From NCBI RefSeq assembly GCF_011764425.1, contig NZ_BLPF01000004.1, positions 1,004,001 through 1,068,000 on the forward strand: DNA of 64,000 bases, given 5' to 3'. A program made the position numbers and the translations under genes. Below are positions 35,550 through 45,881 of the stretch, one piece after another. Origin of the DNA: Phytohabitans houttuyneae (GTDB taxonomy: Bacteria; Actinomycetota; Actinomycetes; Mycobacteriales; Micromonosporaceae). How positions within the stretch are numbered: the stretch's first letter is position 1; every line of letters starts with the position of its first letter. The notes under the pieces are model-generated. The model saw only the letters and a list, made by a program, of their open reading frames with translations, ran no database searches and was not told the DNA's origin.

Positions 35550-38192
35550 CTATCGGGGACATTCGTTGAGCAGCTCGGAAATCGCGTTCGCAACGTGTTT
35601 CACGCCAATTCGGCGGTAGATTTTCTGTGCCTGCCGGAGCAGGTCGGTACCGTTCTCCGAATTGTCGAGGTGTTTATGGCATCGGCCCGCTCCGTGCAGG
35701 GCATTCGCCTCGGCGTTGGGATTGTGCGCTCGCCGCGCGAGGGCGAGAGCCTGTTCGTAGTGGTTGAGTGCCGCCTCCGGCTCGTCTGCGGCGAGCAGAA
35801 GCTCACCGATGTTGGAGAGCGCCTCCGACTGCCCTAACTCATCGGATACCTGCCGAAAGAGGGCAAGTGCCCGCTCGTGTGTCTGGGCCGCCGGCTCGTA
35901 GTCGTGGGTCAGTCGCTCCACGACCCCGAGGTGGTTGAGCACATCCGCCTCTCCGCTGCGGTAGCCCAGCTTGCGGTACAGGGCGAGGGCGTCTATCGCG
36001 ACCTGGCGAGCCGCCGGGTAGCGGCCGGCGCGGATGTGTGCGGCCGCGAGGTAGTTGAGCGCGTGAGCCTCGCCTTGGCTGTCGCCGAGATCGCGTTGAA
36101 TCAGGAGGGCCAGATCGAGCGCTTCGTGACTCGCGTCGTCCTCGCCGATGTGGCTGAGGGCGGTGCCGAGGAAGGTCAAGGCCTTCGCTTCACCGAGCCG
36201 GTCGCCGAGCTCGCGGTAGATGGCCAGCGCGCGCCGTTGTACGTCGATGGCGGACGGGTAGCCCTCTGTCAGTTGCCGCAGGCCGCCAAGCTGGTGAAGG
36301 GCCTCCGCCTCGCCTTGTCGGTCGCCGAGCTCCTCGCAGAGACGCAACGCCTGATCCGACATCTCCAGCGCCTGTGCAAAAGCGCCGCTGGCCCAGAGGG
36401 CGGTGCCCATCTCGTGGAGAGCACGGGCCTGACCGTGCGGGAGGTCCAGACTGCGGTATGTCGCGAGGGCCGCGCGCAGCTCCGCAGCAGCACCGTCATG
36501 GCTGCCCAGCCGCCACCGAACCCCGCCGAGCTCGGTCCGCACATCCGCCACTCCGAGCGCGTTGCCGATCCGCTCATAGATCTCCAGCGCCTGCTGAAGA
36601 GCTCGCTCAGCCTCGGGGTAGTGGCCAGCGTGTCGACGCAGGACCCCGAGCTCGCGCAGCGCGTCGGCTCGGCCTTCCTGATCCCCGGCCGCATCGGGCA
36701 CGGACGCCGCTGACTCGTGGAGAGTGATCGCCTGATCCCACGGCCCAGCCAGCCGCAGGTACGGCGCCATCGCCGCGGACAAGGCCGGCAGCAGGCTCAC
36801 CTGCCGCCGGGCACGGGGCAGGCCCGCACAGGCGAAGAGATTTGCCTGCTCGGCCTTCATCCAGCCCATCGCCTGCCGCCTGGTGCGCAGCGGCGGTAGG
36901 TCATCGTCAGTGGCAGCCGACGCGGTGGGTGGCGCGGTCGGGCGCGACAGGTGCCGCCCGGCGGACGCGGCGGCGCGCCGGTAGTAGTCCAGCAGCCGGG
37001 CGAGCGCACTGTCACGCTCGCGGGCCGAAGCGGTGCCGGCACGGATGATCGCGTACTCGCGGATCAGGTCGTGCATCCGGTAACGGCCGAGCGTGGGCTG
37101 GTCGAGGAGGTGTTGGTGGTACAGCGCGTCCAGGCATTTTCCGGCCTGGCGAGGACTGATGCCGTCGAGCGCGGCGGCGGCGAATCGGTCGACGTCCGGG
37201 CCAGGATGGAGGCCGAGGCGCCGGAAGAAGCGGCGCTGGGCGCTCGAGAGCTGGCGGTACGACACGCCGAAGACCGCCTCCACGGTGACGTCCTCGGCGC
37301 GCATGGAGGAGAGCGCGTGCTTGGCCTGCGTGAGCTCGCGTACCAGGTCGGCGACGGGCCATCGGGCCTCCAGCCGCAGGCGGGTGGCAAGCAGACAGAT
37401 CGCGAGCGGCAAGTAGCCGCAGTTCCGCACGAGATCGTCCACAGTGCTCGCCTCGGCGGGCTCGAGGTGGCGGTTCGCCATCGTGGCGAAAAGCGCGGTC
37501 GCCTCCTCCGGCGGCAGCGGCTCCAGGGTCAGGTTGACCGGCGCCAGGGTCGCCACCAGGCCGCTCAACCGGTATCGGCTAGTGATCATGACAAGGCAGC
37601 GACCCGCGCCGGGCAACAGCGGGCGCACCTGCCGCCAACTGTCCGCGTTGTCGAGAATGACCAAGGCACGGTGTCCGGCCAAGCGTTTACGCCACAACGC
37701 CGCTCGGTCTTCGAGTGCCGTGGGGATCTCTGCCGGACGGACACCGTCGGCCGACAGCAACTGGGAAAGCGCATCGCCCGGATCGACCGGGCGCTGCCCC
37801 GCGGTGTGAGCGTGAAGATTGACGAAGAACTGCCCGTCCCGAAAATGCTCTTGAAGCATGTGCCCGGCGTGTACCGCGAATGCGGTCTTGCCGACGCCCG
37901 GCATTCCGTCGATCGCGTAAACGGGAACGATCGTCTGGGCTTCCGCACGCTGCACGACATAGTGCACCAACGCCCGCAGTTCGCGAGCCCGACCCGTGAA
38001 GCCGGCGGTGTCGCGAGGCAGAATGTTGCAGGGCTCGGCGGCTGTGGCGGTCTGCTCGCGGTACAAGAAGATCTGATTACCCGCCGATTGATAGATCTTT
38101 TCGCCTTCGCGGGCATGTAGTTGCCTGTCGCCATGAGGCGCCGCGCTACCGGCACCGTCATCGGCCGTTGGTGTCCACCCCACAACAACCAC
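35550..38192 (-). CDS. NLR-like NB-ARC/TPR regulator with N-terminal amyloid-like motif
   Basis: 880 residues. A short N-terminal tail carries EKIYQSAGNQIFLY (about 31-44), resembling RHIM-like amyloid signalling motifs. NB-ARC ATPase follows with P-loop GMPGVGKT (96-103), Walker B-like ALVILDNAD, sensor MITSRYRL and MHD-type YRMHDLIREYA. The C-terminal half is about eight TPR units (ALEIYERIGNALG, ALAIYRELGDRLGEA and so on). No DNA-binding domain is visible. GTG 38192 is preceded by GAGG at a short distance. Role by family: ligand-gated oligomerisation and signalling, possibly immunity; inference. Confidence 0.85.
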   Translation of the reverse strand: MVVVGWTPTADDGAGSAAPHGDRQLHAREGEKIYQSAGNQIFLYREQTATAAEPCNILPRDTAGFTGRARELRALVHYVVQRAEAQTIVPVYAIDGMPGVGKTAFAVHAGHMLQEHFRDGQFFVNLHAHTAGQRPVDPGDALSQLLSADGVRPAEIPTALEDRAALWRKRLAGHRALVILDNADSWRQVRPLLPGAGRCLVMITSRYRLSGLVATLAPVNLTLEPLPPEEATALFATMANRHLEPAEASTVDDLVRNCGYLPLAICLLATRLRLEARWPVADLVRELTQAKHALSSMRAEDVTVEAVFGVSYRQLSSAQRRFFRRLGLHPGPDVDRFAAAALDGISPRQAGKCLDALYHQHLLDQPTLGRYRMHDLIREYAIIRAGTASARERDSALARLLDYYRRAAASAGRHLSRPTAPPTASAATDDDLPPLRTRRQAMGWMKAEQANLFACAGLPRARRQVSLLPALSAAMAPYLRLAGPWDQAITLHESAASVPDAAGDQEGRADALRELGVLRRHAGHYPEAERALQQALEIYERIGNALGVADVRTELGGVRWRLGSHDGAAAELRAALATYRSLDLPHGQARALHEMGTALWASGAFAQALEMSDQALRLCEELGDRQGEAEALHQLGGLRQLTEGYPSAIDVQRRALAIYRELGDRLGEAKALTFLGTALSHIGEDDASHEALDLALLIQRDLGDSQGEAHALNYLAAAHIRAGRYPAARQVAIDALALYRKLGYRSGEADVLNHLGVVERLTHDYEPAAQTHERALALFRQVSDELGQSEALSNIGELLLAADEPEAALNHYEQALALARRAHNPNAEANALHGAGRCHKHLDNSENGTDLLRQAQKIYRRIGVKHVANAISELLNECPR

Positions 38193-38425: not shown

Positions 38426-38845
38426 ATGATTGATCCGCTCATGATCGCGGTGGCGACAACGCTGGCCGCAAAGACCGCTGAAGGGCTGTCCGAGGCGGGC
38501 CGTTCCGCGATGGGCAAGCTGATCCAGCGTGTTCGCGGACGGTTGGCCGCCGATCCGGACGGCGCGGCGGCGCTGGAGTCGGCGCGGCGCCAGCCGGAGG
38601 AAAGACAGCGGATGGAGCGGCTGGCCGCCGCCCTCTCCGAGGTTGCCGCGCGGGACCCGTTGGTCGCCGCCGACGTCGCTCGGTTGTGCGCCGCGGTCCG
38701 GGACGGCGGTGTGGCGGCCGCCGACGGTGGCGTGGTCAACCAGGTGTCCGGGAGCGTGGGCGAATCAGTTGTGCAAGCGCGCGACGTGAGCGGCGGTATC
38801 ACGTTCGGCGCGCGTCCCGATCCGGGCGCGCGCGAAGCTCGATGA
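38426..38845 (+). CDS. Small helical protein with C-terminal amyloid-like motif (Bell-type effector candidate)
   Basis: 139 residues. N-terminal helical region of about 90 residues (MIDPLMIAVATTLAAKTAEG onward, rich in Ala/Arg/Glu), then a Gly/Ala linker and the motif SVGESVVQARDVSGGITF (110-127). This is the layout of Bell-domain proteins described with NLRs in actinobacteria, where the motif forms amyloid and the helical part acts, perhaps on membranes. ATG 38426 has GGGAGG five bases upstream. Its stop overlaps the NLR start (ATGA), so the pair is co-translated. Confidence 0.72.
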   Translation: MIDPLMIAVATTLAAKTAEGLSEAGRSAMGKLIQRVRGRLAADPDGAAALESARRQPEERQRMERLAAALSEVAARDPLVAADVARLCAAVRDGGVAAADGGVVNQVSGSVGESVVQARDVSGGITFGARPDPGAREAR

Positions 38846-41004
38846 CCGCGACGGGGCCGGACAGTCGCCCAGAGTCAGCGGTCGTCACGGGCAACCTCCT
38901 CAGCGGTTACGTAGCGGGAAACGCTGTGCAGGCCGGCGCGATACACGGCGGCGTTCACGTGTACCAACCGGCGGCTCCGGCGATCCCCGTTCCGCGCCAG
39001 TTGCCGCCACCGCCCGCTCGGCTGGTGGGGCGCGAGGAGGAACTCGCCGAGATCGACAGCATTGTGCGACGCGCCCGCGACGGACCCGCGATCGTGGTCC
39101 TGAGCGGCACCGGCGGCGTAGGAAAGTCGACTGTCGCGCTGGCGTGGGCTCACCGGGCCCGAGAGCGGTACCCGGACGGGCAGCTCCATCTCAGCCTCGG
39201 CGCGTTCGACCCCGCCGGCCCGGCCGACCCCGCCACACTCCTGGCCCGGATGCTCCGCTCGCTCGGCCTTGCGCCGGAGCGCGTACCAGCGGACACGGCC
39301 GAGTCGAGCGCCTTGTTCCGTTCCCTCGCGGCGGACAAGCAGCTACTGATCGTGCTCGACAACGCCGTCTCCGCCGCACAGGCGCGCCCACTCCTGCCGC
39401 CGTCACGGTCCGCCGCCGTGATCGTGACCGCGCGCTGGCGGTTGGGCGGCCTCCTCGGCGATGGAGCCGCGTTTCTCGACGTCGAGCCATTGGCCGACGA
39501 GCCGGCCACCGCTTTGCTGGCCGGCGCGATCGGCACCGAGCGGATGCTGGAAGACCCGGCGTCGGTTTCGACGCTTGTACGCTTTTGCGCTGGTCTGCCG
39601 ATCGCGCTGGCGATGGCGGCCGCCCGGCTCGCCACACGGCCTCGGTGGCCGGTCGCCCGCGTTGTCGAGGAACTGGCCCAAGAGCGGCGGCGGCTGGTCG
39701 CCCTCGGCAGGGACGGTGACTCGGTGCAAGGGACGTTCGATGTGTCGTATCGTGCGCTGGATCCCGCGGCCGCACGGTGCTATCGGGCACTGGGACTGCA
39801 TCCTGGCCCCGACTTCGGCGTCCCGGTTATGGCCGCGGCGCTGCATCGTGGCCTGGACGAGGCCGAGGACCTGCTCGACAGGCTTGTGGAGGCAAGCCTC
39901 CTCAGCGAGGGTGCGCAGCGGCGGTATCACCCGCATGACCTGATCAGGTTGCACGCGCGGGAGGTGGCCGGCGGCGACGCGGACGCGCCCAGCACGACAT
40001 TGCGCATCCTCGAGTGGTACCTCGCGGGCGCACTCTCGGCCGACCGTGTCCTCACGCCGTACCGGCACCGTGATCCGGTGGACCCGTTCACCGAGCTGGA
40101 CGCGGGCACGGTGCGACACGACAGCCGGCAGGAGGCGCTTGAGTGGCTGGAAACCGAACGGGACAACCTCGTCGCGGCTGTACAGCGCGCGGCTTCCGAC
40201 CTGCCGCTGCTGGCGTGGCGGATAGCCGACTCGATGTGGCCGCTGTTCCTCCTGCGTCGCCACCACCGGGACCGTATGCTTGTGGACCGCGTCGCCGTGG
40301 AGTGTGCGGTGCGCTTGGGCGATCGCGATCGGGAAGCGCGGATGCTGCGCCGGTGGGCGTTCGCGCATTTCGACGTCGGGATGCTGGAGGAGGCGGAGCG
40401 GCACTTCGAGCGCAGCCGGTACCTGTGTGACGCGCTCGGCGACCAGTACGGCGTGGCCTCGGCGGTCGAAGGGCTCGGGATGGTGGCGGCGGCAAGCCAC
40501 CGATACGAGGCGGCGGTCGACCACTTCGGGCAGCAGGAGCGCCTCTGCCGGGAGTTGGGCGAGCACCGTCGCACCGGCCTCGCATTGCTCAACCTTGGCG
40601 GGGCGCACAACGCGCTGTCCCGTCCCGACCGGGCCGTCCGCCATCTGCGCGAGGCGGATTCCATCTTTGCTGGCCTCGACGGAATCGATCCGTACAACCA
40701 TGCGCGAGTAGGTATCGAGCTGGCCCGTGCGCTCGGCCGGCTCGGCGACTTCGCACCGGCACGGATGCGCCTGCGTGCGGCACTTGGCGAAATGCGCGGC
40801 GTGGGCTCGCCGCGTGGCGTGGCCGCCGCGCTGCACCGGCTCGGCGAGCTGGCGCTGTTGGCAGGGGACCACCGGTCGGCCGGGTCACATCTGGCCAGCG
40901 CGTTGCAGCTGTACGAGGAACTGGCCGACACGGAGGTGAGCGAGGTGCGACGTCTACTCGCGCTTGTCCCACCAGCCGAGGCTGACGCGCGCCGGATACC
41001 GTAG
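38842..41004 (+). CDS. NLR-like NB-ARC/TPR protein with N-terminal amyloid-like motif
   Basis: 720 residues. GNAVQAGAIHGGVHVY (26-41) lies before a Pro-rich linker, then NB-ARC with P-loop GTGGVGKS (89-96), Walker B-like LLIVLDNAV, VIVTARWRL and MHD-equivalent YHPHDLIRLHA. TPR-like helices follow (ALGDQYGVASAVEGLG, LGEHRRTGLALLNLGGAHN). The motif resembles that of the coupled upstream protein, as expected if the NLR templates the effector. ATG 38842 overlaps the upstream stop. The 3' end overlaps the convergent PfkB gene by 51 bp. Confidence 0.85.
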   Translation: MTATGPDSRPESAVVTGNLLSGYVAGNAVQAGAIHGGVHVYQPAAPAIPVPRQLPPPPARLVGREEELAEIDSIVRRARDGPAIVVLSGTGGVGKSTVALAWAHRARERYPDGQLHLSLGAFDPAGPADPATLLARMLRSLGLAPERVPADTAESSALFRSLAADKQLLIVLDNAVSAAQARPLLPPSRSAAVIVTARWRLGGLLGDGAAFLDVEPLADEPATALLAGAIGTERMLEDPASVSTLVRFCAGLPIALAMAAARLATRPRWPVARVVEELAQERRRLVALGRDGDSVQGTFDVSYRALDPAAARCYRALGLHPGPDFGVPVMAAALHRGLDEAEDLLDRLVEASLLSEGAQRRYHPHDLIRLHAREVAGGDADAPSTTLRILEWYLAGALSADRVLTPYRHRDPVDPFTELDAGTVRHDSRQEALEWLETERDNLVAAVQRAASDLPLLAWRIADSMWPLFLLRRHHRDRMLVDRVAVECAVRLGDRDREARMLRRWAFAHFDVGMLEEAERHFERSRYLCDALGDQYGVASAVEGLGMVAAASHRYEAAVDHFGQQERLCRELGEHRRTGLALLNLGGAHNALSRPDRAVRHLREADSIFAGLDGIDPYNHARVGIELARALGRLGDFAPARMRLRAALGEMRGVGSPRGVAAALHRLGELALLAGDHRSAGSHLASALQLYEELADTEVSEVRRLLALVPPAEADARRIP

Positions 41005-41889
41005 CCGAAGGGACGCCAGCTCGGAGCTGTCGAGCAGCACCGATGTAGGGCGACGGTGCCCGATGCGCCAGCCCGCGTAGAGAACGGCGTCGCCGAGAGC
41101 GTCCACCGGGTTTCCCGACGCCAGCCAGCCGTGCAGAAACGCGGCGAAGAGCGAGTCGCCGGCGCTGGACGTGTTCCGGACGCCAAGCGGCGTGGTGGCG
41201 GCGACCGTCACGAGCCGCCCGTCCCGCAGGCCCAAAACGCATCCGCGCGGGCCGCAGCCGACCGCCGCCATCCCGGCCCCCGGATGGCGTGTGAGCAACT
41301 GCGCTATCCACTGTGGAGCAGGGCAGGGAAGGCGCTCATGGCTGCAGAAGATGATGTCCGCGACGTCGAGCCATGGCTGGTAGTACGGCTCGTTGATGTC
41401 GGCGATCACGTTGACGTCAACGGCGATGGGTACGCCGCGCAGCACCGCCGCGGGCAGTAGGGACCGGACGAAGTCGGTGTTTGTCAGCACAGCCAGGTCG
41501 GCGCCGTCCAGCGCCTCGGCGAACCGCTCCTCGGGATAGCGGACGGTGTTGACGGTGGTGAGGTGCGGGTACACCATCCGTTGGCCGTTCGGCGCGACCA
41601 GCACGACCGCCTGGGAGGACTCCCACCCTTCCACGATTCCTGGCCCGTCCAGATCCGCGGCGCGTAGCTGAGCGCGGACGATCTCGCCCGCCGGGTCGCT
41701 GCCGACCACGGAGCAGAGCGTCACGTCGTCGCCGAGCGTTCGCAGGATGGAGGCGATCTGCGCGCCGGCCCCGCCGGGCCCCGTCTCCATCCAGGACGGG
41801 GCTACAACGGGTGCGTATCGGATGGGAAAGTCGTCGACCGCGAGGTGCACAGCGAGGCTCGCGACTCCCGCGACAAGGATCCGGCTCAC
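40954..41889 (-). CDS. PfkB-family carbohydrate kinase
   Basis: 311 residues from GTG 41889, with GGAGG about nine bases upstream. N-terminal PfkB signature METGPGGAGAQIASILRTLG; C-terminal signature NTSSAGDSLFAAFLHGWLA with the catalytic Asp. The family phosphorylates sugars, nucleosides or related alcohols. Its start overlaps the stop of the GT-like gene (GTGA), so the two act together. The substrate cannot be inferred. The stop lies inside the 3' end of the convergent NLR gene. Confidence 0.88.
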   Translation of the reverse strand: MSRILVAGVASLAVHLAVDDFPIRYAPVVAPSWMETGPGGAGAQIASILRTLGDDVTLCSVVGSDPAGEIVRAQLRAADLDGPGIVEGWESSQAVVLVAPNGQRMVYPHLTTVNTVRYPEERFAEALDGADLAVLTNTDFVRSLLPAAVLRGVPIAVDVNVIADINEPYYQPWLDVADIIFCSHERLPCPAPQWIAQLLTRHPGAGMAAVGCGPRGCVLGLRDGRLVTVAATTPLGVRNTSSAGDSLFAAFLHGWLASGNPVDALGDAVLYAGWRIGHRRPTSVLLDSSELASLRLRYPARVSLGWWDKRE

Positions 41890-43096
41890 CACCGGCCTCC
41901 TTCGTCGCCGACTGGAAACGCCGGCCCGACCGGAGCTGCCGTACATGGGTCCGGCGGTTCAGGCAGTCGAAGGAGGCTGTACATCTGCTCGCGCAGTAGC
42001 GCGGCCGCGCGGTTCGGCTTCGACGTGACACCACTCGCTACTGCGGAAGACAACGCTGCGCCGCGCGCGTCGAGGGCCTCACACAGTTGCGCGGCGAGCG
42101 GTGTGTCCGCCCGTACCATCGGCGCGGCCGCCGCCATGAGCTCCGCCGGCGAGCGCGGTGCGGTGTCCTGCGGCAACGGCCCGCCAAGCAGCACCGGTAC
42201 GCCCGCCGCGGCCGCGTAGATGGTCGCCGAGCCATGGTCGCCGATGACTACATCCGCGGCGGCGACCAGCCCGCGCCAACTCGCCGGGTCGATGACCCGC
42301 AGACCCGCCTGCCGCAGCCGGGCCAGCCAGGCGAGCACCTGCCGGCGGCCGTGGCACCAGGCAGCGGGGTGAACCGCCATGACCACCTCGAAGTCGTCAC
42401 GCGGCAGGCCGGCGATCTGCTCGAACAGGGCTGCCGGCGCGCGGCCCAGGAGCGACTGCGGCCCCAGGTCGAGCTGATCGCTACGAGGCGGCGCCCGTCC
42501 GGGACCGCCAAGGCTTGCCGGTACATCTCCCGGTTCGGGCGGCTGCTTGCCAGCCGGTCCAGGCACAGGTCGCCGACGACTGTCGCGACAGAGAGTGCCT
42601 CAGGGCACTGGCTGGACAGCACCGGCAGAACCTGGTCATGGGAAACCGCCAGCACCGCTGGCAGCAAACGGCCGTACCAGGTCAGCCACGGCGCACCGAG
42701 GCCGGTGACGAGGTGACTGGCCTGGCCACCGAGCGCCGGTGCCACGAGCTTGTTGTTCATGACTCCATGCGCGATAGCGAGCCAGGGCGCACGGATGCGG
42801 TGGACGCCGCCGCTGTCGGCGGCGATCATCAAGTCAAAGTCCGTGTGTGTCGCCTGCTCCCAGCCGATCTCCACAGCGCCGGCGGAGCGTAGGTATTCGC
42901 GAACGCCGCCGTCGAAGAGATCCGGAGCCTGTGTGAAAACGACCTGGATCCGATGATCGGGCTCCAGCAACTCGACCGCGTCGAGAACATGGCCGGCGGT
43001 GGCCATCGTGTGTACGGCCGCGAGGACCGTCCGCTCTGTCGCAAACGTGCGCCACTTCGCGGCGCCGGGGCCGGCGGGAAACTCCATCCACTGCAT
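41886..43096 (-). pseudogene. GT-B-like protein (possible glycosyltransferase), one frameshift
   Basis: From ATG 43096 (MQWMEFPAGPGAAKWRTFAT) the N-terminal half runs to LVAISSTWG. The frame then shifts at the CCCC of 42462-42465 and resumes as PQSLLGRAPAALFEQIAGLP, with the C-terminal part DVVIGDHGSATIYAAAAGVP typical of GT-B folds (CDP-glycerol transferase or GT28-like). One more G restores about 403 residues. Precise reaction not known. Divergent from the SARP gene by 122 bp and coupled to the PfkB kinase. Probable sequence error. Confidence 0.75.
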
Positions 43097-43218
43097 GGTG
43101 CCGAGGGTGTGCCCCACGTCCGGACAGGCGCCGGACACCGGGCCGGACACCAGTCCGGACGTATGTGCCGAACGCGCAGGTGGGGATAGCCGAGAAATTC
43201 TCGTGCCACACTTCGACA

Positions 43219-44079
43219 ATGGACATCCGGCTGCTCGGCGAGGTGGAGATCGAATCCGCCGGCACGATATTCGCGCTGCCCCGTTCTGCGGAGCGTTGTG
43301 TCCTGGCGACCTTGGCCCTGAACGTCGGGCGAGTGGTCCCGCTCGGCACGTTTGTCGATCACATTTGGGGCTCCAGGACGCCAACCAAGGCCGAGGAATC
43401 GGTTGCCACCTATGTCCGAGCAGTGCGTCGAATGATCGAGCGCGCCGGCGGCACGCGGGATTGTCTGCCTAACCGTCGTCTCGACGGTTATCGGCTCGAC
43501 GTCACGCCGAGCGCGATCGACCACCGCAGGTTCGTCGATCTTTCCGCCACCGCGCGGAGGTTGATCCGCCAGGAGAGTTTCCCGCAGGCGATCGGGACAT
43601 TCGAGCAGGCGTTGGCATTGTGGCGCGGCGAAGCGTTGACCAATGTCAACAGTCAATGGGCTGAGAGCGTCCGCTACCGGCTGCGACAGGATCGCTTGGA
43701 CGTCACCTGCGAGCTCCTCGACCTGCTGCTGCGCGTGGGTGCGCACGCGGACGTCGCTGCCCGGGCAGCTGATCTCGTCCAGGAGGAGCCGTCGGAGCGG
43801 TCGATCTCGCTCGCGCTTCGGGGTTTGGCGGGCAGTGGGCAGCGGGCCACGATTCCATCGTTCATGATGCGGGCGGCGGCACGGATGCGGGAGGCGAGCG
43901 GCGTGCGGCCGAGCGCTCAAATAGTCGCGCTGGCACGCAAGTTGGCCGACTCCGAGGAGGTCGACAAAATTGCCTTGGAAAGGCCGCGTGTGGCTGAGTC
44001 GAGCGGTGTCATCACGATAACAGCCGTCAATTCCAAGAATGTTTATCAGGCGGGTGGCGATCAGTACTTCATCGACTGA
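43219..44079 (+). CDS. SARP-family regulator with C-terminal amyloid-like motif
   Basis: 286 residues. N-terminal winged-helix DNA-binding domain (MDIRLLGEVEIESAGTIFAL, VPLGTFVDHIWGSRTPTK) and a BTAD helical domain (about 95-245), the SARP layout. There is no NB-ARC, but the last 14 residues, KNVYQAGGDQYFID, resemble the Q-x-G motifs of the neighbouring NLRs. ATG 43219 lies in the divergent gap with the GT-like gene, its likely target (inference). A small membrane peptide gene follows 137 bp downstream. Confidence 0.87.
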   Translation: MDIRLLGEVEIESAGTIFALPRSAERCVLATLALNVGRVVPLGTFVDHIWGSRTPTKAEESVATYVRAVRRMIERAGGTRDCLPNRRLDGYRLDVTPSAIDHRRFVDLSATARRLIRQESFPQAIGTFEQALALWRGEALTNVNSQWAESVRYRLRQDRLDVTCELLDLLLRVGAHADVAARAADLVQEEPSERSISLALRGLAGSGQRATIPSFMMRAAARMREASGVRPSAQIVALARKLADSEEVDKIALERPRVAESSGVITITAVNSKNVYQAGGDQYFID

Positions 44080-44388: not shown

Positions 44389-44555
44389 ATTTCTTCTATT
44401 CGTGGTCGCCTTTTGGTTCCGAGCCTCGATTCGTGGTCGGCGTTGAGGGATGGTGATTGCGGTCCGGATAAGCCTTGCCTGATCACGCCTCCGTGTGGTC
44501 GTGTAGTTACGGGTGGTTACCGCGTGGTCACGGTGTGGTTGGTGGGGAGGCGCTG

Positions 44556-45881
44556 GTGGAGCTCGAGGCCTTGTTCACGCCTGCGGCGGAAGAGCGGATC
44601 GGGATCGAGGTCGAATGCGGTCTCGTCGACGAGCGCAGCGGGCAGAGCGCTCCCTACGACGGCCCGTGCGGGTCGCGGGCGTTGCTGGAGCGCGTGCGGC
44701 ACGAGCTCGGCGCCGAGCCCCTCACCGAGGCGGGTTCGCTGGTCGGTGTGGCGCTGGCGCACGGCGCGCAGCTGTCGCTGGAGCTGGGCGGCGCGATCGA
44801 GTACTCGTCGGCCCCGTACCAGTCGTTGGTCGCGATGATCGGGGCCGCGCGGCGGGATCTTCGGGTGATCGCCGGGGTGGCCGCGCGGTCCGGGTTGGCG
44901 TTGTTGCCGGGCGGGCTGGTGCCGTTTACGCCGCGCGAGCGGATTCCGTGGGCGCCCAAGCCGCGGATCGACATCATGCGCGGCTACTTCCGCGGGCTCG
45001 GCACCGCGGCGGCGTACGCCGAGAACGTCATGGGCCTGACGCTCTCCACACAGACCACAGTGGACTATCTGTCGCCGGAGGACTTCCGGGAAAAGCTGGT
45101 GCTGCTGGTGAAGGCGGCACCGATCGCGGCGGCGCTGTTCGTCAACTCGCCGATCGAGGAGGGGCGACCGACCGGCCTGCTGTCGCGGCGGATGCAGATG
45201 TGGGGGTACGTGGACCCGAGCCGGTGCGGCGTCCTGGGTTTCGCGGTGCGGCCCGATGTGTCGGCGGCCGACGTGGTCGAGTGGGGCGGCGCGCTGCCGA
45301 TGATCTACCGGCAGGTGGGAGCCGGCTATGTGGCGGGGCCGGAGCGGCCGTTCCGCGACCTTGTCGAGCACGGCTTCGGCGACGGCACGGCGCCCGGGAT
45401 GGACGACTGGCGCGCGCACCTCTCCCAGGTGTGGCCGCAGGTGCGGGCGCGGCACACGCTGGAGATGCGTGCGTTCGACGGGCTGCCGTGGGAGGCGTTC
45501 GCGGCGGCGCCGGCCTTCTGCGTCGGGTTGGCCTACCATCCGCCCGCGCGGCGGGCGGCGCTCGCGCTGCTGGACGGCCTGACCGCGGCGGACCTGGCGC
45601 AGGCCACCGAGGACGTGGCGGTCAAGGGCCTCGACGCGATGGTGGGGGACAGGTCGGTCGGCGCGACGGCGGAGGCGCTGCTCGGCCTGGCGCGTCAGGG
45701 CCTGCGGGCGCGGGTCACCGCGGGCTGGGAGCGGCGCGACGCGGAGCACCTCCTCGATCCGCTCGACGACGTGGTGCGCAGCGGGGTCACCTTCGCCGAG
45801 CGGGCGGTCTCGGACTGGACCGGTCCCATGCGGGAGCGACCCGCCGCCCTGGTCGCGGCGGGTCGAGTTCCCGTGGGATAG
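44556..45881 (+). CDS. Glutamate-cysteine ligase family protein (GCS2/EgtA-like)
   Basis: 441 residues. GTG 44556 follows GGGGAGG at five bases; the frame is open upstream. Family features: RIGIEVECGLVDERSG near the N-terminus, QLSLELGGAIEYSSAPYQSL (substrate/metal site), MRGYFRGLGTAAAYAENVMG, TLSTQTTVDYLS and HTLEMRAFDGLPWEA. EgtA makes gamma-glutamylcysteine for ergothioneine; none of egtB-E is nearby, so EgtA versus another GCS2 ligase is open. Confidence 0.85.
   Translation: MELEALFTPAAEERIGIEVECGLVDERSGQSAPYDGPCGSRALLERVRHELGAEPLTEAGSLVGVALAHGAQLSLELGGAIEYSSAPYQSLVAMIGAARRDLRVIAGVAARSGLALLPGGLVPFTPRERIPWAPKPRIDIMRGYFRGLGTAAAYAENVMGLTLSTQTTVDYLSPEDFREKLVLLVKAAPIAAALFVNSPIEEGRPTGLLSRRMQMWGYVDPSRCGVLGFAVRPDVSAADVVEWGGALPMIYRQVGAGYVAGPERPFRDLVEHGFGDGTAPGMDDWRAHLSQVWPQVRARHTLEMRAFDGLPWEAFAAAPAFCVGLAYHPPARRAALALLDGLTAADLAQATEDVAVKGLDAMVGDRSVGATAEALLGLARQGLRARVTAGWERRDAEHLLDPLDDVVRSGVTFAERAVSDWTGPMRERPAALVAAGRVPVG

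Follow-up and report, generated by a model that had tools for sequence, protein, structure and literature searches.

Two NB-ARC/TPR receptors and two candidate effectors are encoded in the window, the stretch of 64,000 nucleotides of the Phytohabitans houttuyneae genome analyzed here (NZ_BLPF01000004.1, positions 1,004,001 to 1,068,000). With a probability of about two in three, they make up an island of two receptor–effector pairs, each wired by its own motif. In the first pair, a small Bell-like protein is matched to the receptor NLRb; in the second, a stand-alone SARP transcription factor is matched to the receptor NLRs, the two together representing a split AfsR. NLRb, NLRs, wire and Bell-like are labels coined in this analysis, whereas Bell and BASS follow the usage of the papers cited. 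L-numbers denote loci and G-numbers denote genomes, G000 being the genome of the window itself (own genome).

The Bell-like gene (38426–38845, forward strand) begins at an ATG preceded by a Shine–Dalgarno-like run (GGGAGGG) and encodes a small helical protein of 139 residues, an effector candidate described here from its open reading frame (ORF), an 18-sequence family alignment and a structural model. Its translation contains SVGESVVQARDVSGGITF, and VVQARDVSGGITF lies near its end. The effector-side motif, SVVQARDVSGGITF in the ORF translation, spans residues 114–127 (38765–38806). The first-pass annotation had the protein ending in this motif; the motif is indeed present near the end, but 12 further residues (GARPDPGAREAR) follow it. 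Five residues (D77, N105, G109, Q117, and G123) are invariant in the 18 aligned sequences. Single-sequence AlphaFold2 predicts helices at residues 4–20, 23–42, 44–54, 59–76, and 78–99 with a mean pLDDT of only 57.7, consistent with the helical front domain proposed in the first-pass annotation. Residues 95–139 have a pLDDT below 50, and a low-confidence helix (111–120), with no strand, covers part of the motif. On this low-confidence model, used as support only, a flexible tail would follow the helical front domain. The N-terminal helix is mildly hydrophobic (best 19-residue mean 1.15; 0.93–1.73 over the 18 sequences). No domain scores above the curated cut-offs of Pfam, NCBIfam, or PADLOC, no enzyme or DNA-binding domain was found, and comparison with the PDB gave no telling match.

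The Bell-like gene is followed by the gene encoding NLRb (38842–41004, forward strand), and the stop and start codons overlap in an ATGA at 38842–38845; both the gene order and the coupling are as the first-pass annotation had described them. NLRb is an NB-ARC and TPR protein of 720 residues, as judged from its ORF and its Pfam matches (NB-ARC, E = 1.4e-7; TPR_12, 2.6e-17), with the NB-ARC domain at residues 79–284 (39076–39693). AVQAGAIHGGVHVY is found near the start of the protein, and GNAVQAGAIHGGVHVY (residues 26–41) lies ahead of the P-loop, so the placement of a motif before the ATPase, also claimed earlier, is borne out. The receptor-side motif itself, NAVQAGAIHGGVHVY, corresponds to residues 27–41 (38920–38964) in the ORF translation and is recognized by the Bell-tail profile described below.

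Alone, the match between the two partners in the window is only suggestive, because one unrelated segment, the best of 324 segments of 85 residues from other genes of the window, also reaches its local score of 42. When the NLRb front was shuffled 2000 times, 9 of the shuffled versions matched the Bell-like tail at this score or better, and among 30 other NLR fronts of the own genome there was none that did. Of 300 family genomes, 103 have a match to the Bell-like protein at E ≤ 0.01. Seventy Bell loci, including the own locus, were analyzed; they are the best-ranked among the matches listed, down to E = 5.3e-9, with a partial match in G014 left out (30 came from the search and 40 were retrieved, with longer stretches for 28 of the 70). 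NB-ARC proteins are encoded in the DNA stretches examined at 62 of these loci. A profile built from 68 Bell tails of relatives, with the window excluded, gives the NLRb of the window 30.2–30.4 bits, compared with at most 2.1 bits for the 30 other NLR fronts (filtered out of 34 NLR loci of the own genome) and 7.0 bits for 325 shuffles. Except for the window, the profile was trained on the loci whose NLR fronts it then scored, and 58 of the 65 NLR fronts at the 70 loci lie above all 355 controls; at least one passing NLR is found at 58 of the 70. At the level of sequence, the family profile test is decisive for the Bell/NLRb motif match. The motif that the first-pass annotation saw in both partners is thus confirmed, together with its conservation between partners at homologous loci, on which that annotation had made its reading depend.

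Among the seven fronts that fail, three belong to the second kind of NLR (window, L155, and L157), one belongs to an AfsR-type neighbor (L188), one was read in the wrong frame (L069), and two are weak cases (L191 and L194). Relative to the Bell gene, the passing NLR is downstream at 22 loci, upstream at 11, and divergent at 24, with the position of the Bell gene not re-found at one. Since passing loci come in three arrangements, the match survives rearrangement. At 12 of the 70 Bell loci, no passing NLR was found in the DNA examined. Two of these (L082 and L069) show a motif-bearing front by pattern, two (L157 and L106) are at or on short contig ends, and the others are counted as misses.

Two observations on the relatives can be added. 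At L183 and L194, the Bell tail and the NLR front both depart alike from the usual motif (SYQAQTININ with LYQGHTITVT, and VFQIGSAGTINI with LYQSQNLTVI). In several relatives where the Bell-like gene and a motif-bearing NLR gene diverge, another gene separates them (for instance, L054:508–1140 and L060:544–1176, minus strand). This gene, putatively similar to DUF6879, may encode a third component there.

The second pair in the same locus, which the first-pass annotation overlooked, is the more unusual one. NLRs (35550–38192, reverse strand) is a second NB-ARC and TPR protein, of 880 residues by ORF and Pfam, encoded divergently from the Bell-like gene. Its receptor-side motif, KIYQSAGNQIFLY, occupies residues 32–44 (38061–38099, reverse strand). 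The SARP (43165–44079, forward strand; alternative ATG at 43219) is a stand-alone protein of 304 residues with HTH and BTAD domains (Pfam Trans_reg_C, 2.4e-8; BTAD, 2.9e-21), and its relatives in the PDB are AfsR and EmbR. Its last 13 residues form the effector-side motif, NVYQAGGDQYFID in the ORF translation (44038–44076). The SARP tail and the NLRs front score 37, a value reached by 6 of 2000 shuffles, none of the 30 other NLR fronts, and none of 324 other segments of the window (best 36). The pairwise matches within the window, for both Bell/NLRb and SARP/NLRs, are modest on their own.

In a survey of 354 family genomes at E ≤ 1e-60, the SARP turned up in 11, which belong to four genera and have 12 such genes between them (two in G084). 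Of the 11 genomes, 9 encode NLRs near the SARP, and G077 has the two on different contigs; in G006, the SARP gene is interrupted, and the 19 kb inspected on its contig showed no NLRs gene. The mean pairwise identity of eight aligned SARPs is 47% in the DNA-binding part, 9% in the linker (48% gaps), and 42%, with no gaps, in the tail. The SARP motif is not always terminal, since residues follow it at L153 (G103) and the open frame continues from it into the next gene at L154 (G091). The tail is weak at L159 (VHQAAGRITIF), and the printed tails of nine stand-alone SARPs from other loci (L195–L203) show no such motif by eye. A profile of the nine non-window SARP tails, also trained on loci whose NLR fronts it then scored, apart from the window, matches all nine scored NLRs fronts at 12.7–30.1 bits (window, 16.8), compared with a maximum of 8.9 bits among 450 controls (6.1 for 30 own-genome NLR fronts, 7.1 for 60 Bell-partner fronts, and 8.9 for 360 shuffles). 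The nine leave out L158 and L227, whose fronts show the motif by reading.

The composition of the SARP loci differs among genomes. G103 and G091 (L153 and L154) encode NLRs and the SARP, both with motifs, and Bell and NLRb were not found in these stretches. All four genes are present in G048 (L155), and in G077 they are split over two contigs (L156 and L157), with the NLRb front cut off. Four genomes of genus g7 (L158, L160, L162, and L163) encode NLRs, the SARP, and an NLRb without the motif, with no Bell gene in the stretch; because all of them belong to one genus, these loci may count once, perhaps as a single event. In G737 (L227), the SARP tail VFQCFGDQHIYEA and the NLRs front VYQAAGDQHIYDH both have an H that is absent at that place elsewhere, which, as far as sequence can tell, is a point for co-variation within the pair. 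The NLRb of L227 retains its motif though the locus has no adjacent Bell gene, an exception to the link between Bell and NLRb. Several of the SARP-locus genomes, including G737, hold Bell-type matches elsewhere, so Bell partners could be supplied in trans.

The two motif wires do not cross, in that neither tail profile recognizes the fronts of the other pair. The SARP-tail profile gives six NLRb fronts at most 0.1 bits, and the Bell-tail profile gives nine NLRs fronts at most 1.3 bits. The Bell-tail profile scores the NLRb of L155 at 38.1 bits, whereas the four Bell-less NLRb proteins receive −1.9 bits or no score at all. The own genome encodes at least two other pairs. The third, on C1 at about 1,616 kb, consists of a BASS3-like small protein (L242:5531–5983) and an NLR (L032:9–2663; G000:C1 ~1,616.5–1,619.7 kb), and its tail KGVQVGDHNTQHNTF and front RGVQVGDGTVQHNYF resemble the published BASS3 peptide. 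The fourth, on C1 at about 670 kb, has overlapping genes, both on the minus strand, for a small protein (L042:7992–8450) and an NLR in a short frame of 237 residues (L042:7300–8013), with the tail SGIIQTGDSS and the front AGVMQTGNNA. When the four tails are compared with the four fronts, the highest value of each row and each column falls on the diagonal (42, 37, 81, and 59), the best off-diagonal score of 36 being close to the weakest diagonal one. The motifs of the window presumably lack a RHIM-type core. By eye, VVQARDVSGGI and AVQAGAIHGGV differ from the VQVGDxNxQ-type core of BASS3 (RHIM-like), for which Table 2 of PMC8086366 gives the Frankia peptide VDLRDAKGVQVGDGNVQINRF. The RHIM-type identity considered in the first-pass annotation is not supported; judged against that table, it is the 1,616-kb pair that matches BASS3 instead.

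Both kinds of pair also have fused versions. The own-genome NLR L034:5951–7642 has a Bell-like domain joined straight to NB-ARC, and the motif is absent. Its Bell-like match has an E of 1.4e-9 among 1779 ORFs from the 34 own NLR loci, where the small protein belonging to the 670-kb pair ranks next (E = 0.0032). The L034 gene is perhaps broken or misassembled, because the rest of the NLR sits in another frame. L167 (G021) is an NLRs homologue, 41% identical over the NLR part, whose single chain also includes HTH and BTAD (BTAD, E = 2.2e-33; NB-ARC, 5e-9). Since Bell–NB-ARC and SARP–NLRs fusions exist, the architecture suggests that the partners of each pair belong together, and that the motif stands in for a covalent link and would be needed only between separate chains. 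At L247, in another family, the gene for an NLRs relative is preceded by one for a small Bell-like protein; the tail of the latter, ARQFIAGRDMHV, matches the NLR front, AQVHIAARDLYV, at a level reached by 1 of 5000 shuffles. With the SARP-tail profile, this front scores 10.5 bits, just above the controls, and the tail only 2.5. L247 weakly suggests that the wire may be older than the SARP output and that effectors may have been swapped on a kept wire.

The SARP is surrounded by other genes that recur. A PfkB-family carbohydrate kinase gene (40954–41946, minus strand) recurs at the loci L155 and L227, and a GCS2-type glutamate–cysteine ligase gene (44475–45881) comes after the SARP and lies next to it in G103 and G091 as well. 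The gene divergent from the SARP (41886–43384, minus strand) is interrupted in the window, where it appears as two overlapping frames (41886–42566 and 42248–43384), and is open in relatives such as L155:7055–8269, for which no Pfam or NCBIfam match was found. It adjoins the SARP divergently at 8 of the 12 SARP loci viewed, including the window. The intergenic region between the two (43119–43161) contains CCGGACA twice with an 11-base period (43120 and 43131). No repeat with this period was found in G103 or G091, but both share with the window a CCGGAC pair spaced 12 bases apart. The CCGGAC repeats could be a SARP target, because the SARP family binds direct repeats.

From the genes and their overlap, the motifs and their conservation on both partners, the non-crossing specificity, and the fused versions, we infer a mechanism involving oligomerization, amyloid stacking, a direction of signaling, membrane action, and promoter control. 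STAND ATPases oligomerize upon binding ligand and ATP. A signal sensed via the TPR part of NLRb would lead the NB-ARC protein to oligomerize, and the clustered front motifs would nucleate a beta-arch stack; this would draw in the motif-bearing tail of the Bell-like protein and serve as its template. The mildly hydrophobic N-terminal helix of this protein would then act, probably at the membrane. The available parts of PMC7889193 propose such nucleation by clustered front motifs, with capture of effector tails, for fungal and bacterial pairs. NLRs would work alike with a different motif and a transcription factor as partner, so that the SARP and NLRs would be a split AfsR with the shared motif in place of the covalent SARP/NB-ARC link and an output by clustering or release of the SARP on DNA. 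The same island would thus have one membrane or cell-death-type output and one transcriptional output. More tentatively, and at somewhat less than even odds, an amyloid-type templating motif may carry the signal from the NLR to the DNA-binding transcription factor, with prion-like assembly replacing a peptide bond. If so, the SARP wire would provide all-or-none, possibly self-sustaining (heritable) gene expression beside a cell-death wire with which it does not cross.

Other explanations would account for part of these data. The motifs could simply be short sticky stretches of an ordinary kind, or beta-zippers, which hold effector and NLR together in a defined complex with no amyloid templating involved. 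Such a static tether predicts co-occurrence and specificity equally, and direct fusions without the motif exist, yet the motifs lie where the published Bell/NLR amyloid motifs do, at the effector C-terminus and the NLR N-terminus (PMC7889193, in the parts available), and another pair of the own genome matches the published BASS3 peptide; a simple tether thus seems unlikely. It is also conceivable, with still lower probability, that the Bell/NLRb pair is real and the SARP resemblance incidental, the SARP being an ordinary regulator of its divergent neighbor with another role for its tail. All nine scored NLRs fronts match the SARP-tail profile with none of the 450 controls reaching the lowest of them, the SARP tail is conserved where the linker ahead of it is not, and one NLRs homologue has a SARP in its own chain. 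These results argue against coincidence, although the neighbor is common beside the SARP, CCGGAC-type repeats are present in the promoter, and the SARP sample is limited to 11 genomes of four genera.

Both NLR proteins may instead be AfsR-type regulators of secondary metabolism with no function in immunity or cell death. Their best NCBIfam matches, to AfsR and a RiPP TPR regulator, point in this direction but fall below the cut-offs, and those of PADLOC are limited to a generic TPR model plus some weak ATPase matches. An exclusively regulatory role is improbable for a receptor whose Bell-like partner has no enzyme or DNA-binding domain that could be found and recurs alongside NLR proteins across the family. 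The Bell/NLRb pair alone is a sound further case of the already described Bell/NLR amyloid-motif pairs, whereas the apparent SARP/NLRs wiring would be a new sort of output, in which genes are switched instead of a killer protein being engaged. The outcome of motif-wired signaling in filamentous bacteria is left open in the available text of PMC7889193, and a real SARP pair would bear on this question by showing that bacterial motif-wired NLR signaling also drives transcription. Because there are at least four motif pairs, fusions that lack the motif, and loci that have or lack each effector, it can be tested directly how specific the wires are, whether effectors are exchanged, and whether templating is needed.

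Several known systems resemble the two pairs. Effector-associated domains (EADs) are folded domains, whereas the module shared here is a motif of about 15–20 residues. In the EAD adaptors of STAND conflict systems, as described in the portions of PMC8195603 and PMC7159879 available, a homotypic module likewise joins a separately encoded effector and STAND ATPase. The closest description in the available parts of PMC7889193, PMC8086366, and PMC12261475 is that of the Bell/NLR BASS pairs, which have adjacent or overlapping genes, a small helical effector, and a motif at the effector C-terminus and the NLR N-terminus that is matched and conserved at related loci; the difference is that the second, independent pair here ends in a transcription factor. 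The fungal NWD2/HET-S and HELLP/PNT1 systems (PMC7889193 and PMC7885112, in the parts available) also have matched motifs at the NLR N-terminus and the effector C-terminus, with parallel wires in one genome, but the likeness to the window pairs that can be seen is one of layout rather than of sequence homology. Finally, SARP and NB-ARC/TPR parts co-occur in AfsR/SARP regulators (PDB 8hvr, 8jke, and 8k60) and are fused in the L167 homologue, whereas in the window they are encoded not as one chain but by two genes about 5 kb apart, whose products share a short terminal motif.
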